Source: Alphaproteobacteria bacterium (GTDB lineage: Bacteria > Pseudomonadota > Alphaproteobacteria > Reyranellales > Reyranellaceae). From it: a stretch of DNA of 64,000 nucleotides. Under the pieces are notes generated by a model that made no database searches, was not told the origin of the DNA, and saw only the letters and a list, made by a program, of their open reading frames with translations. Shown here piece after piece: positions 14,628 through 21,388 of this stretch (the stretch's first letter is position 1; each line of letters opens with the position of its first letter). Location of the stretch: contig VGCH01000005.1 in NCBI GenBank assembly GCA_016870115.1, positions 1 to 64,000 on the forward strand. The letters run 5' to 3'. A program made the translations under genes and the position numbers.

Positions 14628-15268
14628 AGCTCTACGGGTATTTCAGATCCTCGGCGGCATTTCGCGTGCGGATCGCGCTCAACCTCAAGGGCATCTCGGT
14701 CGATCACGCCTTCCGCCACCTCCGCAAGGGCGAGCAGTCGACGCCGGACTATGCCCGCCTCAACCCGCAGAAGCTCGTGCCCGCGCTGCAGCTCGACAAC
14801 GGCGAGGTGTTGACCCAGTCGCTGGCGATCGTCGAGTACCTGAATGAGATCGCGCCCGAACCGCCGCTGTTGCCCGCCGACCCCGTCGGGCGCGCCCGCG
14901 CACGGGCGCTCGCGCTGATCCCGGCCTGCGAGATCCATCCGATCCAGAATCTTCGCGTGCTCGGCTACGTCCGCGAAAAGTATGGCCAGGACGAAGCCGG
15001 TGTCGCGGCCTGGGCGCGGCACTGGATCGGTACCGGTTTCGAGGCCTATGAATCGTCGGTGGCGGGCCATTCCGCCACAGGCATGTTCAGCCACGGCGAT
15101 CGGCCGACGCTGGCAGACATCGCCCTCGTGCCGCAGGTCTTCAACGCCGCGCGCTTTCAGGTCGACATGACACGCTACCCGACGATCCGGCGCATTCATG
15201 AGGCCTGCATGAAGCTGCGGGCGTTCGATCTCGCCCAGCCCTCCAAACAGCCGGACGCCGAACCGTGA
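14624..15268 (+). CDS. maiA: Maleylacetoacetate isomerase (zeta-class GST)
   Basis: 214 residues. Isomerises maleylacetoacetate to fumarylacetoacetate with glutathione. The zeta-class signature S-S-A-A-F-R-V-R-I-A (active-site Ser-Ser) occurs at residues 9-18, then L-V-P-A-L and the GSH-binding Q-S-L-A-I-V-E-Y-L. The C-terminal helical domain includes C-E-I-H-P-I-Q-N. ATG overlaps the preceding stop as ATGA and its own TGA is overlapped by the next start (GTGA): tight translational coupling. Confidence 0.96.
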   Translation: MKLYGYFRSSAAFRVRIALNLKGISVDHAFRHLRKGEQSTPDYARLNPQKLVPALQLDNGEVLTQSLAIVEYLNEIAPEPPLLPADPVGRARARALALIPACEIHPIQNLRVLGYVREKYGQDEAGVAAWARHWIGTGFEAYESSVAGHSATGMFSHGDRPTLADIALVPQVFNAARFQVDMTRYPTIRRIHEACMKLRAFDLAQPSKQPDAEP

Positions 15269-16767
15269 AGCGCGCGGTCGTCGCGCTGGTCTCACTCCTG
15301 CTCGTTGCGGCGGGCGTCGGTTGGCTCTCGATACCCTCGATCGAGCGGCATCTGGTTGCCCAGCTGCGCGGCCAACTCGAGCGGGCGGGGGCCACGCGCA
15401 TCGATCGCCTGGAAATCGGCCTGCTCGCTCGCCGCGTCGAGATCGACGGTCTCAACCTGGTCGCCGGTGCGGGCAACGGGACCGAGGTCGCCCTGACGCG
15501 CGCGCGGGTCTCCGGCCTCGAATGGCCGATCCGGGAACTACTGGCCGGCCGCACCCCCTTTCGCGGATGGCGGCCCGGAGATCCGTTCATTGCCGCCAAT
15601 GTCGAGATCGAAAACCTTCAGGTTGCTGACCCGATCATCGCGACCGGCGTTCGCGTGCGCCGGCTCGTTGCCGAAGGCGTGAACCTTGCGCGTTTCGAGC
15701 CGGCGCGTGGCGGCACGGACTGGATGGAGTCTGCCGCCGGTCCGGTAGACATCGCGCGTGCCCTGCGTGCCCTCGCGCTCGCGCGTCTGGAGATCACAAC
15801 GCTGCTGCTGTCGCAAACCGGCGTCGGCGAGACTCTGAGTGTCGACCGCTTCACCGTTGCGGGTTGGCGGCAGGGCAGGGTGGCTGACTTCGCGGTCGAC
15901 GCGTTCGTGGCGCGCGCCGGCGGCAACGCGGCGGAGGTCGTGCGGGTCGAGCGCGTCAGCCTGCGCGAGGGCGAGATGACCCTGATGCTCGACTACCTCG
16001 ACCCGGTGGGTGCCAGCGAGCAATCGCCGCCGCTGCGCTGGCTGGCCTCTACGTTCGAGGGTTTCTCGGGCACCGCACTCTCGGACAACGGTCTTGCGTT
16101 GACGCGGGTTTCGACAAAGGGCTCACGCGACGGCGATGCACGTTACCGCTGGAACAGTCGTGTGGAGGGGGCGGGTTTCCGGCCCGTCGCTGGCACCTTT
16201 ATCGGCGATGCTGCGGCCGAGTCGTTTCGGGGGCTCGGGATTTCCGAGTTGGCGGTCGATGTCGACTGCGGCGCGATGGAGGATCGTGTCGCCGGGAAGT
16301 TCGATCTGGAACGGTGTGGTGTCGACATCAGAGGTCTCGCCACGATCGGATTGTCGTTCGGCCTCGAAGGCCTCGATGCCTCGTTTTGGGAGGCTTACGA
16401 CTGGGGGGACTACGGCCTTCTCTTGACGAGCAAGGGCGCAGTGAACCGCATCACCCTGTCGTTGCGTGACCAGTCGCTGCTTGACCGGGCTCTGCGGCTT
16501 GCCGCGGGCGGGATGGGAATGCCGGCACAGCTCGCTCGCGCGACCATCGCGCAGCAGGTGCGGCGGTTCCAGCCATCCGGGGTCCTGATCACCCAGGAGA
16601 TGACCGCCATCGCCGATACCGTCGCGCGCTTCGTCGAGCGTGGCGGTGAGCTGGTGTTCGAGGCAAAGCCCGATCCGCCTTTCGCTTTCGAGCGGTGGGA
16701 CTATCTCCTCAGTCCCGGACCCGATCTCGTGAGCGCGCTGGGACTCTCTGTCCGCCACGCGCGGTGA
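15265..16767 (+). CDS. Unknown 500-residue membrane-anchored protein, AsmA-like features
   Basis: Starts at GTG 15265, overlapping maiA by 4 bp. An N-terminal hydrophobic segment (residues 4-22) acts as anchor or signal. The rest is beta-rich with alternating hydrophobic patterns; the early part (R-L-E-I-G-L-L-A-R-R-V-E-I-D-G-L-N-L, then A-R-V-S-G-L) recalls AsmA-like or DUF748 envelope proteins. No catalytic motif is apparent. The translational overlap ties it to the tyrosine-catabolic operon, although an envelope protein has no obvious role there. It ends 3 bp before the convergent DsbA-like gene. Confidence 0.8.
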   Translation: MKRAVVALVSLLLVAAGVGWLSIPSIERHLVAQLRGQLERAGATRIDRLEIGLLARRVEIDGLNLVAGAGNGTEVALTRARVSGLEWPIRELLAGRTPFRGWRPGDPFIAANVEIENLQVADPIIATGVRVRRLVAEGVNLARFEPARGGTDWMESAAGPVDIARALRALALARLEITTLLLSQTGVGETLSVDRFTVAGWRQGRVADFAVDAFVARAGGNAAEVVRVERVSLREGEMTLMLDYLDPVGASEQSPPLRWLASTFEGFSGTALSDNGLALTRVSTKGSRDGDARYRWNSRVEGAGFRPVAGTFIGDAAAESFRGLGISELAVDVDCGAMEDRVAGKFDLERCGVDIRGLATIGLSFGLEGLDASFWEAYDWGDYGLLLTSKGAVNRITLSLRDQSLLDRALRLAAGGMGMPAQLARATIAQQVRRFQPSGVLITQEMTAIADTVARFVERGGELVFEAKPDPPFAFERWDYLLSPGPDLVSALGLSVRHAR

Positions 16768-16770
16768 GAC

Positions 16771-17538
16771 TCAGCCCCTGCGGGCTTCGGCGATCAGCTG
16801 ACGCAACGCGTTGGCGTCGATGGCGCCGGGTACGAACTGGCGGCCGACCACGAAAGCCGGTGTGCCACGCACGCCAAGTAGATTGGCGAGCGCCATGTTG
16901 CGGTCGATCACCTGTTGGACTTTCGGGTCCTGCATGTCCTTCTCGAGCCGCGCCACGTCGATACCCACCGACTCGGCGATCGCGAGGATGCGCGTCCGGT
17001 CGAGCTGCGTGCGGCTCTCCATCAGCGCGTCGTGGAAGGCGAGGTACTTGCCTTGCGGACGCGCCGCGAGCGCCGCGAGCGCGGCCACGCGAGAGGCATC
17101 GCCCAGGATCGGTAGATCCTTGTAGATCACGCGGACCTTGGGGTCGGCGGCGAGGACCGCCTTCACCGCGGCATGGGCACGCTTGCAATAGCCGCACTGG
17201 TAGTCGACGAACTCGACGATCGCGACGTCGCCGTAGGGATTGCCGCCGACGGGGCTGTCGGGATCGCGCAGGAGCTGGCCCTCATACTGGCGGATGGCGA
17301 CACCGGCCTGTGCCTCGCGCTGCGCTTCCTGCTTCTTCTCGAGCTCCTGCATCGCCTCGACCAGCACCTCGGGATTGGCCAGCAGATATTCCCGCACGAT
17401 CCGCCCCACGGCCGCCTTGTCACCGGTGAGCGCCGGTCCTGCGCCCGCACTCGGCGTGGCCGGTGGTGTGCCGCGCAACGCCAACGCGCCACCGGCAACG
17501 ACGAGAAGGCCCATAAGGGCAAGAAGCAGGACTCGCAT
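16771..17538 (-). CDS. DsbA-family thiol:disulfide oxidoreductase
   Basis: 255 residues. The signal or anchor at residues 1-22 is followed by a helical N-terminal region of the type seen in ScsC/DsbA proteins (I-V-R-E-Y-L-L-A-N-P-E-V-L) and a thioredoxin fold with the active site C-G-Y-C at 115-118. The cis-Pro segment is G-T-P-A-F-V-V-G. It acts in the periplasm as oxidase or isomerase. Read with the M48 protease gene 55 bp upstream on the same strand. Confidence 0.94.
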   Translation of the reverse strand: MRVLLLALMGLLVVAGGALALRGTPPATPSAGAGPALTGDKAAVGRIVREYLLANPEVLVEAMQELEKKQEAQREAQAGVAIRQYEGQLLRDPDSPVGGNPYGDVAIVEFVDYQCGYCKRAHAAVKAVLAADPKVRVIYKDLPILGDASRVAALAALAARPQGKYLAFHDALMESRTQLDRTRILAIAESVGIDVARLEKDMQDPKVQQVIDRNMALANLLGVRGTPAFVVGRQFVPGAIDANALRQLIAEARRG

Positions 17539-17593: not shown

Positions 17594-18976
17594 TTACCGG
17601 CGGGGCCGGCGGGATTCGACGAAGGCCTTGATGTCCTGGGCCCGCAGCCAAGCCGGTGTGTTGGGCGTCAACTGGCGTTCGGCCTGGCTCGCATGCGCAA
17701 CCGCCTCCGAGCGCTGGCCGCGCAGGATCGCCATCTCCGCCCTGGCCAGTGAAGTGAGGCCCGCATTGCCGAGGCGCTGCTGCGCGATCGCCTGCAGGCG
17801 CCAGAGTTCGAAGCTGTCGGATTCGGATGGTCCGGCCTGATCCAACGCACGCACGGCCTCGCGATCGTTTTCCGGCCGATTGGTTTCCACCAGGGCGCGC
17901 GCGAGGTCGATCTTGAGCAGACCCGACTGCGGCAACAGCTGAACGGCACGGCGGTAGGATGGCAGGGCCTCAAGCGCTCGCCCATTCTCGAACAGGGCCT
18001 GGCCGCGCAATTCGTGGAAGTAGGGGTCGTTGGGCGCGTCCTTTAGCAGCCCGTCCAGGGTCAGCAACGCGGACCCGAGGTTGGCCCGGCGGAACAACGC
18101 GATCGCACGCGCATAGCGTGCCGGCACCGACCTGTCGGACTCGCTGTAGCGCTGCAACGCCTGCTCGGGCGCGATGAATCCGAACAGCTTTGCGACCATG
18201 CGGCCATGCTGTTCGATGAAGCGTGGCGGGTCGGGCGCATTCGCATGGGGGGAGCGCAGCGCCGCTTCCTCGAAGAAAGCGATGCGGTCCTGGGTGAGCG
18301 GATGGGTGCTGAGGTAGGGATCGCGCCGCCCCAACAGCATCCGCTCCTGCTGCAGCAGGATGCGGAGGAACTCAACGCTGCCTTTGGTCGACTGGCCGGT
18401 GCGCTCCAGATAGCCGATCGCCGCTTGATCGGCGGCGTTCTCCTGTGTCTGCGTATACTTGAGGAACAGGCCGATCGAGGGCGGCGCGGCGCTGGATCCG
18501 GTTGGCCCGCCGCGACCCACGCCACCACCCGACGTGGCGCTGCCGGCGATCGCACCGCCGGCCAGGATCATTTCCAGGATTTGCAGCGTGCTGAGTGCCC
18601 GCAGTTCCTCCTGCTGGCGGGCGAGGTGTCCGCCCGCGATGTGGCCGGTCTCGTGGGCCAGCACGCCAATGAGCTGGTTGGGCCGCTCGGTGCGCATCAG
18701 GAGGCCAGTATTGAGGAAGATGCGCTGCCCCGCCGCCACAAAAGCGTTCAGCCCCGGATCGTTGACGATCAGGATATCCACCGCCTCTGGGTTCAGGCCG
18801 GCGACTCGCCAGATCGGCGTCACGAACGCACGGATGGTGCTTTCGATCTCGGCGTCGCGTATGAGTTGGAGCCGCTGGCCGGATTGCGCCCACGCGTTCG
18901 CCAGCGGCGTGGCGACCGCGAGAACGAGGCAGGCGAAGATGGCGAAGCGACGAGACACGAGGGTACCGATGGACAA
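17594..18976 (-). CDS. M48-family periplasmic metalloprotease with TPR repeats (BepA-like)
   Basis: 460 residues from TTG 18976; an in-frame GTG at 18958 gives an equally good signal peptide and avoids overlap with the divergent lipoprotein gene. The zinc-protease motif H-E-T-G-H is near residue 110, with the third-ligand region E-N-A-A-D-Q-A-A further on. The C-terminal part has TPR-like helices (residues 290 onward). BepA-like proteins assist outer-membrane protein assembly or degrade failed intermediates. A Gly/Ser-rich loop lies between the two zinc-site elements. Confidence 0.92.
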   Translation of the reverse strand: MSIGTLVSRRFAIFACLVLAVATPLANAWAQSGQRLQLIRDAEIESTIRAFVTPIWRVAGLNPEAVDILIVNDPGLNAFVAAGQRIFLNTGLLMRTERPNQLIGVLAHETGHIAGGHLARQQEELRALSTLQILEMILAGGAIAGSATSGGGVGRGGPTGSSAAPPSIGLFLKYTQTQENAADQAAIGYLERTGQSTKGSVEFLRILLQQERMLLGRRDPYLSTHPLTQDRIAFFEEAALRSPHANAPDPPRFIEQHGRMVAKLFGFIAPEQALQRYSESDRSVPARYARAIALFRRANLGSALLTLDGLLKDAPNDPYFHELRGQALFENGRALEALPSYRRAVQLLPQSGLLKIDLARALVETNRPENDREAVRALDQAGPSESDSFELWRLQAIAQQRLGNAGLTSLARAEMAILRGQRSEAVAHASQAERQLTPNTPAWLRAQDIKAFVESRRPRR

Positions 18977-20234
18977 CGCTAGGGATGGGCGCTGGGGCCG
19001 TCAATCGCGTGTCGTCGCGCTCCTCGCCGCCGCCTGTTTGATGCTCGCCGCTTGTGGCGAAAGTGGGACACGCGCGCCGGAGATCGCGAGCGCGGCCGAT
19101 GCGCGCCAGGGCGGCATTCGTAGCCAGGGCGTCGTCGTGACCGACAGCTTCCGGGCCTATGCCGGCGCCGATGAGGGGTTCGCCGCCGAGGCCGCGCGCG
19201 ACGCTCTCAACGCGGGTGGCAATGCGGTCGACGCCGTGGTCGCCGGCTACTTCGCCCTTGCGGTCACGCTTCCGTCGGCGGCGAGTCTGGGGGCGCATGG
19301 CGCCTGCGTCGTGCACTTGCATGGGACGCGTACCGCCGCGGCTTTCGGATTTCCGTCGGTCCCTGCCGGTCGAACGAATGGCGGACCGGTGGCCGTACCA
19401 ACCGCCGTTCGCGGCGTGGCACTCATGCATCTGCGACACGGAAAGCTTCGCTGGGAGCAGCTTGTCGCGCCCGCCGAGCGTCTCGCGCGCGCCGGCGTGC
19501 CGGTGTCGCCGGGCTTGGCCCGCGATCTCCAGGCGGCGGGCCTCTCATCACCCGGCTCAGTGTGGCTCCAGCCCGACCTAGCCGCCGTGCTGGGCGCGCT
19601 TCGCCAAAGCGGCGGCGGCGATTTTGCCCAGGGCCGGCTCGCGCGCCAGTTGGCCGAACAATCCGCCCCGACCGGCGCGGGACTGTCGCTCGACACAATC
19701 CGGGCCGCCATTCCGATCGCAGGACCCACGGTGACCGAGGCGTTCGGCTCCCATCGAGTGCATGGTGTGCCCGCGCCACTCGGCGGGCCGCAGGCGCTGG
19801 CCGCTTGGCGTGGCGGGGCAGCCGCGACCGGCGCGGGCGGAGGCGTGGCCGGCGTGGTCGCTGTGGACTCCGAGGCTTCCGCCGCGGCTTGCAGCTTCTC
19901 AATGGGCGTACCGTTCGGGGCGCGGACGGTCGTTCCGGGCATGGGGATCTGGCTGGCAGCACCCGCTGGTGATCCCGTCAGCCCGTTGATCGTGGCCAAC
20001 CCGGCCAATGGTGAGTTCTTCTTCGCGGGCGTCGCGCGATCGGGCTCGCAGATCGGTGCCTTCGCACGCGCGGCACTGGCGGGCGATGGCGCGGTCGAGC
20101 AGGCGTTCGCAAGCCGCGGGGCGGGTGTGACGGCCATCGCGTGTCCGCGAGGTTTGCGCGGAAACCAGCAGAGTTGCCGCGCCGGCACCGATCCCGGCGG
20201 CTTCGGGCTCGTGGTTCCGGCCTTGGGGCGTTGA
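18969..20234 (+). CDS. Gamma-glutamyltransferase-like lipoprotein, probably inactive
   Basis: 421 residues from ATG 18969. A lipobox (M-L-A-A-C-G) follows the signal segment, so it is a lipoprotein. The GGT fold is evident: E-A-A-R-D-A-L-N-A-G-G-N-A-V-D-A, then V-A-V-P-T-A-V-R-G-V-A-L and, near residue 290, G-V-A-G-V-V-A-V-D-S-E with P-F-G-A and G-M-G-I-W-L downstream. True GGTs have T-T-H-x-S-V-V-D at that point; here the catalytic Thr is missing. It is also about 130 residues shorter than a full GGT. Probably a non-catalytic relative. The next gene is an aminotransferase. Confidence 0.85.
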   Translation: MDNARDGRWGRQSRVVALLAAACLMLAACGESGTRAPEIASAADARQGGIRSQGVVVTDSFRAYAGADEGFAAEAARDALNAGGNAVDAVVAGYFALAVTLPSAASLGAHGACVVHLHGTRTAAAFGFPSVPAGRTNGGPVAVPTAVRGVALMHLRHGKLRWEQLVAPAERLARAGVPVSPGLARDLQAAGLSSPGSVWLQPDLAAVLGALRQSGGGDFAQGRLARQLAEQSAPTGAGLSLDTIRAAIPIAGPTVTEAFGSHRVHGVPAPLGGPQALAAWRGGAAATGAGGGVAGVVAVDSEASAAACSFSMGVPFGARTVVPGMGIWLAAPAGDPVSPLIVANPANGEFFFAGVARSGSQIGAFARAALAGDGAVEQAFASRGAGVTAIACPRGLRGNQQSCRAGTDPGGFGLVVPALGR

Positions 20235-20251
20235 TCGTGTCTGGAGGTCGC

Positions 20252-21388
20252 GTGTCGCGACGCGGCGCTGCGGTCGATCCGTTCATCGTCATGGACGTGA
20301 TGGCCGCCGCCGCCGAGAAGGAGGCGGTCGGCGAGCGCGTCGTCCATCTTGAAGTCGGACAACCCAGCACCGCTGCCCCCAGGATGGCGATCGCAGCGGC
20401 CCATGCGGCGCTCGATGCCGACCGTCTGGGCTACGTGGCCGCGCTCGGCTTGCCGGCGCTACGCGAGCGCATCGCGCGGCACTATCGCGAACGCTATGGT
20501 GTCGCGGTTCCGGTGGAACGGATCGTGGTGACCACCGGCTCGTCGGGCGGGTTTCCGCTCGCGTTTCTCGCCGCGTTCGACGCCGGTGAGCGGATCGCGC
20601 TCGCGGCGCCCGGGTACCCGGCGTACCGCAACGTGCTCGCGGCTCTCAACCTTGAAGCTGTCGATCTGCCGACGACGGCCGAGGATCGATTTCAGCCGAC
20701 TGCTGAGGCACTCGAGCGCGCCGGACCCATCTCTGGTCTGATCGTCGCCAGCCCGTCCAATCCCACCGGCACGATGGTGACGCCAGCGGAGCTCAAGCGG
20801 CTGGCCGAATGGTGCCACGCGCGCGGCGTTCGGCTGGTCTCGGATGAGATCTACCACGGCATCGTCTACGAGGGAGAGACTGCAACAGCCGCCGCGTTCT
20901 CGAGCAGTGCGATCGTGCTGAACAGCTTTTCAAAATACTTCTCGATGACGGGCTGGCGGGTCGGCTGGCTGGTCCTGCCGGAAGAGCTGGTTCGACCCGT
21001 GGAGCGCCTCAGCCAGAATCTATTCATCTCGGTGCCCACGCTGTCGCAGCACGTGGCGCTAGCGGCGATGGAGTGTCGCGACGAGCTCGATGGCCATGTG
21101 CGCCGCTATCGCGCCAACCGTGATCTCCTGATGGCGGGTCTCCCGGCGACCGGGCTCGACCGACTGACCCCGGCCCAGGGCGCGTTCTATCTCTATGCGG
21201 ATGTCGGGCACCTCACCAATGACAGCCGCGAGTTTTGCGCGCGGATGTTGCGGGAGGCGGGAGTCGCCACCACACCGGGCGTCGATTTCGACCGGGCGCG
21301 CGGCGCGCGCACTCTGCGCATTTCCTTTGCGGGCTCGCCGGAGGAAATGGAGGAGACGGTTCGTCGATTGCGCGCCTGGCGACGCTGA
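20252..21388 (+). CDS. Class I/II PLP-dependent aminotransferase
   Basis: 378 residues from GTG 20252, with GGAGG 4 nt upstream; GTG 20237 is an alternative. Fold-type I aminotransferase: T-T-G-S-S-G-G-F substrate-loop region, P-S-N-P-T-G-T, V-S-D-E-I-Y-H and PLP lysine in N-S-F-S-K-Y-F-S-M-T-G-W-R-V-G. Related to aspartate/tyrosine aminotransferases. It lies 18 bp after the lipoprotein gene. Tyrosine aminotransferase, feeding hppD, is a tempting but unproven role. Confidence 0.92.
   Translation: MSRRGAAVDPFIVMDVMAAAAEKEAVGERVVHLEVGQPSTAAPRMAIAAAHAALDADRLGYVAALGLPALRERIARHYRERYGVAVPVERIVVTTGSSGGFPLAFLAAFDAGERIALAAPGYPAYRNVLAALNLEAVDLPTTAEDRFQPTAEALERAGPISGLIVASPSNPTGTMVTPAELKRLAEWCHARGVRLVSDEIYHGIVYEGETATAAAFSSSAIVLNSFSKYFSMTGWRVGWLVLPEELVRPVERLSQNLFISVPTLSQHVALAAMECRDELDGHVRRYRANRDLLMAGLPATGLDRLTPAQGAFYLYADVGHLTNDSREFCARMLREAGVATTPGVDFDRARGARTLRISFAGSPEEMEETVRRLRAWRR

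Follow-up and report, generated by a model that had tools for sequence, protein, structure and literature searches.

Alphaproteobacterial lipoproteins with the fold of gamma-glutamyltransferase and an ablated active site: possible partners in outer-membrane biogenesis

The window, the whole stretch of 64,000 nucleotides analysed here from an alphaproteobacterial contig, encodes a gamma-glutamyltransferase (GGT)-like protein that is very probably a pseudoenzyme without GGT chemistry, because the nucleophile, the histidine that follows it, the NN pair and the lid lysine have been lost clade-wide under purifying selection. The clade to which it belongs is given the name pGGT here, for GGT-like pseudoenzyme clade of Alphaproteobacteria. 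A structural or binding role, as a sequence-only reading of the same DNA had proposed, would fit such a protein. The best explanation, in which we place roughly even confidence, is that pGGT is a disulfide-stabilised lipoprotein pseudoenzyme serving as a non-catalytic partner in envelope protein quality control. The gene lies among the following neighbours.

16771..17538, minus strand: DsbA/ScsC-like thiol oxidoreductase with a CGYC motif (PF01323, 98 bits; ScsC_N PF18312, 62 bits)
17594..18976, minus strand: BepA-like protease with M48 and TPR domains, HETGH intact, start uncertain (PF01435, 95 bits; TPR_19, 43 bits)
18969..20234, plus strand: pGGT, a putative GGT-like pseudoenzyme lipoprotein of 421 residues, ATG start (open reading frame, Pfam PF01019, AF2 model)
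20243..21388, plus strand: class I/II aminotransferase (AAT), directly 3' of pGGT, start uncertain (PF00155, 209 bits)

Loss of the catalytic site across the clade

The site at which GGTs carry their catalytic threonine was located from alignments.

19836..19868, plus strand: ablated nucleophile site GGGVAGVVAVD, residues 290-300

In the window protein, V293-A294-G295 align with Thr391/Thr392/His393 of true GGTs, residue numbers that we take to be those of the E. coli enzyme, in agreement with the mutant name T391A in PDB 2e0w. The replacement of Thr-Thr-His by V-A-G bears out the claim of the sequence-only reading that the catalytic site is altered, and the alteration extends to the orthologues, since TTH is found in 0/98 pGGT members as against 27/33 GGTs. 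The aligned members comprise 97 loci and the window copy; one locus cut by a contig end (L090) was dropped from both the alignment counts and the tree. In assembling the GGT comparison set, one short frame (L054) and three near copies (L058, L066 and L069) were dropped, and L075, which gave no blastp hit, is absent.

The nucleophile column holds G in 26 pGGT members, S in 24, A in 23, T in 7, E in 6 and other residues in 12, versus T in 32 and S in 1 of the 33 GGTs. The loss reaches the rest of the active site: the histidine after the nucleophile (0/98 versus 30/33), the asparagine of the NN lid pair (0/98 versus 30/33) and the lid-loop lysine of the GKR motif (0/98 versus 29/33). The alignment, which the earlier reading had named as a check on its claim, places no replacement threonine nucleophile elsewhere in the protein. 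R114, NN, the SS pair and GKR are presumably the GGT residues concerned with substrate binding and the lid. The roles of some of them are described in parts of PMC4568574, where archaeal and extremophile GGTs are reported to replace the histidine yet keep the threonine; absence of the histidine is therefore no proof of inactivity by itself. Seven pGGT members, scattered over the tree, have a threonine at the nucleophile position without the histidine (L039, L161, L173, L200, L208, L227 and L228) and are the best candidates for residual autoprocessing.

In a tree obtained by a quick search without bootstrap, the 98 pGGT rows form one side of a branch that separates them from the 33 GGTs (SH-aLRT 100). 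Parsimony rooted on the GGTs assigns a non-threonine state to the ancestor of the pGGT clade, followed by 6 changes involving threonine. As reconstructed from the sequences, the nucleophile was lost once, early, at the base of this alphaproteobacterial clade, and the protein would then have been kept for another job. The segment preceding the nucleophile measures 25 residues in the window protein, the shortest of all, versus 57-109 in 14 GGTs; in many threonine-less pGGT members it still spans 80-106 residues, and in others 27-78. Because many members without the threonine keep the whole segment, the alignment places loss of the catalytic residue before trimming of the segment by about 75 residues, with the window copy trimmed most.

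The family is under purifying selection, with dN/dS of 0.05-0.19 in the 22 most similar pairs listed, drawn from 18 close relatives (Nei-Gojobori method, own script). Orthologues are present in 25/25 genomes of the same family, the window's own included. A sequencing or frameshift artefact of one genome was rejected as the source of the altered site, which is lost in all 24 of the 24 readable same-family orthologues; local decay was likewise rejected as the cause, given that the loss is basal and that selection is purifying. Of all members, the window copy has eroded furthest, with proline in place of R181 (arginine in 87/98 members) and S358 in place of a conserved glycine of the oxyanion loop. 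One class-genome match (G081, contig C39, 43317-44762) contains an internal TAA and is either a copy in decay or the product of a faulty assembly.

A pGGT profile match of at least 227 bits occurs in 130/385 genomes of the class, and three more class genomes (G349, G149 and G254) match at 200-218 bits, under that level. All 76 genomes of the order match the profile, three of them (G423, G434 and G436) with a best match that scores as an ordinary GGT would. In a phylum sample of 398 genomes, matches of at least 256 bits are confined to the window's class; the best in other classes reaches 199 bits. Spread of pGGT beyond the class was rejected, as the other-class matches in this sample look like true GGTs, spanning the profile from about 27 (from 9 in one case) to 310. 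Named holders are a metagenome-assembled genome labelled Enhydrobacter aerosaccus, Skermanella stibiiresistens and Tistrella mobilis, the last through its plasmid pTM3, which carries no annotation and is the one named holder from the plasmid collection.

Fold, lipobox and clade-specific cysteines

The window protein scores 101.5 bits against Pfam PF01019 (cut-off 27) and just 64 bits against the equivalog GGT model TIGR00066, versus a cut-off of 357.85. Its AlphaFold (AF2) model, built from 29 sequences, has a pLDDT of 85.4 and a pTM of 0.89. The top structural match is 2e0w, the T391A mutant of E. coli GGT in its uncleaved precursor form, which superimposes on model residues 22-389 of 392 with a Z of 41.0 and 2.6 A over 355 aligned residues (Foldseek E 1.4e-22). 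Divergent GGT homologues, LmbA (6j3i) and a Bacillus halodurans protein (2nlz), match at Z 31-37. All of the 50 structural matches listed fall within the GGT/asparaginase/taspase group, which in itself excludes nothing. Because the model matches the uncleaved precursor over 355 residues, pGGT is predicted to retain the whole alpha-beta-beta-alpha GGT fold as a single chain despite its missing residues. Recognition of a GGT fold from the sequence was thus correct, and the earlier estimate of some 130 missing residues is about right, with 355 model residues aligning to a 500-residue GGT chain.

Two kinds of cysteine distinguish pGGT from GGTs: that of an N-terminal lipobox and four others fixed in the clade.

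18969..19055, plus strand: signal peptide with lipobox LAAC, read from the sequence
19053-19055, plus strand: codon of Cys29, the candidate lipidated cysteine, read from the sequence
19305..19307, plus strand: family Cys113, in 98/98 members and 3/33 GGTs
19890..19892, plus strand: family Cys308, in 98/98 members and 0/33 GGTs
20142..20144, plus strand: family Cys392, in 98/98 members and 0/33 GGTs
20175..20177, plus strand: family Cys403, in 98/98 members and 0/33 GGTs

The signal peptide and lipobox that mark bacterial lipoproteins are present in the window protein, as judged from sequence. The lipobox cysteine occurs in 98/98 members and a strict lipobox in 87/98. In E. coli, the residue after this cysteine indicates the membrane to which a lipoprotein is sorted. 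It is Gly, Ser or Ala in 75/98 pGGT members, Asp in 5, and Gly in the window. Because the outer membrane is the destination that the E. coli rule assigns to such residues, pGGT is probably lipidated and anchored to the inner face of that membrane, where it would be tethered as one uncut chain. A relationship to LptM was considered and rejected, the match amounting to nothing beyond the lipobox (E 0.57).

All five cysteines, that of the lipobox together with C113, C308, C392 and C403, are kept in the window protein. The model places C113 and C308 within strands, with C392 and C403 on either side of an inter-strand loop. From these positions relative to the modelled secondary structure, two disulfides are probable, one between C392 and C403 closing the short loop and one between C113 and C308 joining two strands; both would be formed by periplasmic Dsb enzymes. 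The clade also conserves E170 (93/98), E69 and R212 (91/98 each), D68 (88/98) and R181 (87/98), all of them seldom found in GGTs. The sequence-only reading is well supported on the pseudoenzyme and was right about the neighbouring M48 gene; it overlooked the four invariant cysteines and the DsbA/ScsC-like gene.

Gene neighbourhood and competing explanations

Neighbourhoods were compared at 98 loci, from 88 of the 130 class genomes with a match of at least 227 bits, another 7 genomes belonging to the order, and 3 named contigs. The M48 gene stands head-to-head with pGGT in 96/98, the layout seen in the window, so that the BepA-like neighbour named by the earlier reading is real and conserved. 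The DsbA-like gene follows behind the M48 position in 66/98 loci and is unseen in the other 32, some of which are cut short. The motifs of both neighbours are intact, HExxH in 96/96 M48 proteins and CxxC in 66/66 DsbA-like proteins. The aminotransferase lies 3' of pGGT on the same strand in 85/98 loci. Its adjacency, also pointed out before, is therefore conserved, but it has no recognised envelope link and shows the weakest coupling of any neighbour to pGGT (0.18, below).

In the window, the TTG start of the M48 gene (18976) overlaps the pGGT ATG (18969), and an alternative M48 start is the GTG at 18958. Because there is practically no intergenic DNA (18958-18976), the promoters of the two genes must sit within each other's coding regions. 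Spacing is similarly close in L082-L084. Between the maiA-like and dsbA-like genes, 15265-16767 encodes a 500-residue protein without a Pfam match, whose identity to the proteins at the syntenic position elsewhere is only about 30%.

Branch-rate coupling was estimated on the 54 taxa that have all four genes. Over all branches, the partial correlation is highest of the six pairs for pGGT-M48 (0.47), followed by AAT-DsbA (0.39), pGGT-DsbA (0.37), M48-AAT (0.34), pGGT-AAT (0.18) and M48-DsbA (0.15). When only terminal branches are counted, AAT-DsbA takes the lead (0.51) and pGGT-M48 drops to 0.39. The coupling is weak evidence because AAT-DsbA, a pair with no known link, itself reaches 0.39. The M48 protease is found in 325/385 class genomes, in 126/130 with pGGT and, by subtraction from lists intersected by eye, in 199/255 without it; the protease therefore works without pGGT. 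In the 4 remaining pGGT genomes, all of family f28, no M48 match was found at 1e-35, and at the two f28 loci inspected (L223 of G356 and L229 of G182) it is the DsbA-like gene that lies immediately next to pGGT in divergent orientation. Given both the f28 exceptions and the M48-bearing genomes without pGGT, pGGT is neither required by M48 nor strictly bound to it. Family f28 constitutes a natural experiment on which partner of pGGT matters. Membership of pGGT in BepA-type quality control is thus favoured by gene order and opposed by f28, which lacks M48, and by the weak rate coupling.

Whether pGGT works in the same envelope process as M48 and DsbA is, on this evidence, close to evenly balanced. 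If it does, pGGT would partner both the BepA-like protease and its DsbA/ScsC-like neighbour, either by holding client proteins or by docking the protease to the membrane. A more specific version, in which the protein is an outer-membrane biogenesis factor misnamed gamma-glutamyltransferase and acts as a disulfide-locked chaperone or protease adaptor with the BepA-like protease and the ScsC/DsbA-like isomerase, can be advanced tentatively. Divergent neighbours may share nothing beyond their promoter region, and a somewhat doubtful alternative is that the job of pGGT is unrelated to M48 and DsbA, for example that of a structural envelope protein, with the layout preserved by shared regulatory DNA or conservation of gene order. 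Such an account would accommodate the f28 genomes, the aminotransferase kept at most loci without an obvious link, and the AAT-DsbA coupling; it sits less well with the leading pGGT-M48 correlation over all branches and with a head-to-head layout that persists across many families in which the M48 proteins are mostly 38-50% identical to that of the window.

The remaining alternatives concern the protein itself. That pGGT is a sensor or binding protein, its old gamma-glutamyl pocket still binding some glutathione-like peptide or small molecule, is improbable. The fold is whole, the glycines of the oxyanion-loop Gly-Gly are retained in 91 and 70 of 98 members and position 409 is Thr or Ser in 87/98, but the R114 column, that of the substrate arginine, holds Arg in just 6/98, the LSS serines are not conserved, the NN pair and lid loop are gone in all, and the window copy has also lost one glycine. 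More unlikely still is a cryptic enzyme whose nucleophile has migrated, either to a Ser or Thr in one of the first two positions of the site or to an invariant cysteine. Pseudoenzymes with migrated catalytic residues are described in parts of PMC10211241, the four cysteines are invariant, and Ser, Thr or Cys occupies 391 or 392 in 63/98 members; however, neither position does so in the other 35, the window with its V-A-G among them, no single Ser or Thr is conserved, and the cysteines lie in or beside beta strands, as expected of disulfides. A shift of the threonine to the second position as the rule of the family was rejected, with Thr there in just 44/98. Least probable is that the window copy is decaying and functionless. 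It is the most diverged of the family (52% identity to L082, against 67% for M48 and 82% for AAT) and has the shortest pre-nucleophile segment, yet its reading frame is intact, its five cysteines are kept and, at 0.37/0.31/0.585, its differences across the three codon positions follow the pattern of a coding gene.

Known systems and consequences for annotation

Like GGT (an Ntn hydrolase, MEROPS T3; 2dbu and 2e0w), pGGT has the GG..NA.DA large-subunit motif and the nucleophile-bearing beta hairpin in a complete predicted fold. Unlike GGT, it has no Thr nucleophile, histidine, NN or lid loop, has lost up to about 75 residues before the nucleophile and has gained a lipobox and four clade-specific cysteines. 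It resembles 2e0w as a GGT chain predicted to be unable to cut itself, although 2e0w was made in the laboratory and is otherwise intact in its active site, whereas the pGGT loss is natural and old. LmbA and the B. halodurans 'cephalosporin acylase', compared by structure matches and titles, are also divergent GGT folds; by their entry titles, unlike pGGT, they are enzymes or Thr mutants.

By analogy, a precedent within the class for a dead enzyme as partner is DipM of Caulobacter crescentus, a catalytically inactive envelope enzyme domain that works by binding partner enzymes, according to the relevant passages of PMC10336132. It shares with pGGT the class, the envelope and the inactive domain; its fold is LytM rather than GGT, and the partners it binds are autolysins. 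The M48 protease BepA (YfgC) of E. coli, as described in passages of PMC8423444, assists the assembly of LptD, a process that involves the lipoprotein LptE and a rearrangement of disulfides. That BepA-LptD/LptE/Bam quality control likewise combines an M48 protease, disulfide rearrangement and outer-membrane lipoproteins, and those passages name no GGT-like protein. In part of PMC10883770, co-evolution of alphaproteobacterial yfgC with both lptD and bamB is reported. It is on the role of BepA in LptD assembly and on this co-evolution that the assignment of pGGT to envelope quality control is based. If the link to M48 and DsbA is true, pGGT would be a new component of outer-membrane quality control, open to direct testing, in a class of bacteria that differs from E. 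coli.

No curated Pfam or NCBIfam model separated the clade among the 33 members scanned, and no published description of it was found in the open-licence literature, outside which most subscription papers and preprints fall. Because the window copy passes the Pfam cut-off, automatic annotation would probably label pGGT proteins gamma-glutamyltransferase, crediting about one-third of the sampled class genomes (130/385) with one glutathione-degrading enzyme too many. The window genome (3.56 Mb) contains 7 further full-length GGT genes (among L072-L079), and the threonine is kept at the site in all 5 of those seen in the alignment. Two of the GGTs in this genome depart from the usual motif, L072 with TIY at the nucleophile site and L077, whose open frame is unusually long at 966 codons, with TTS rather than TTH.
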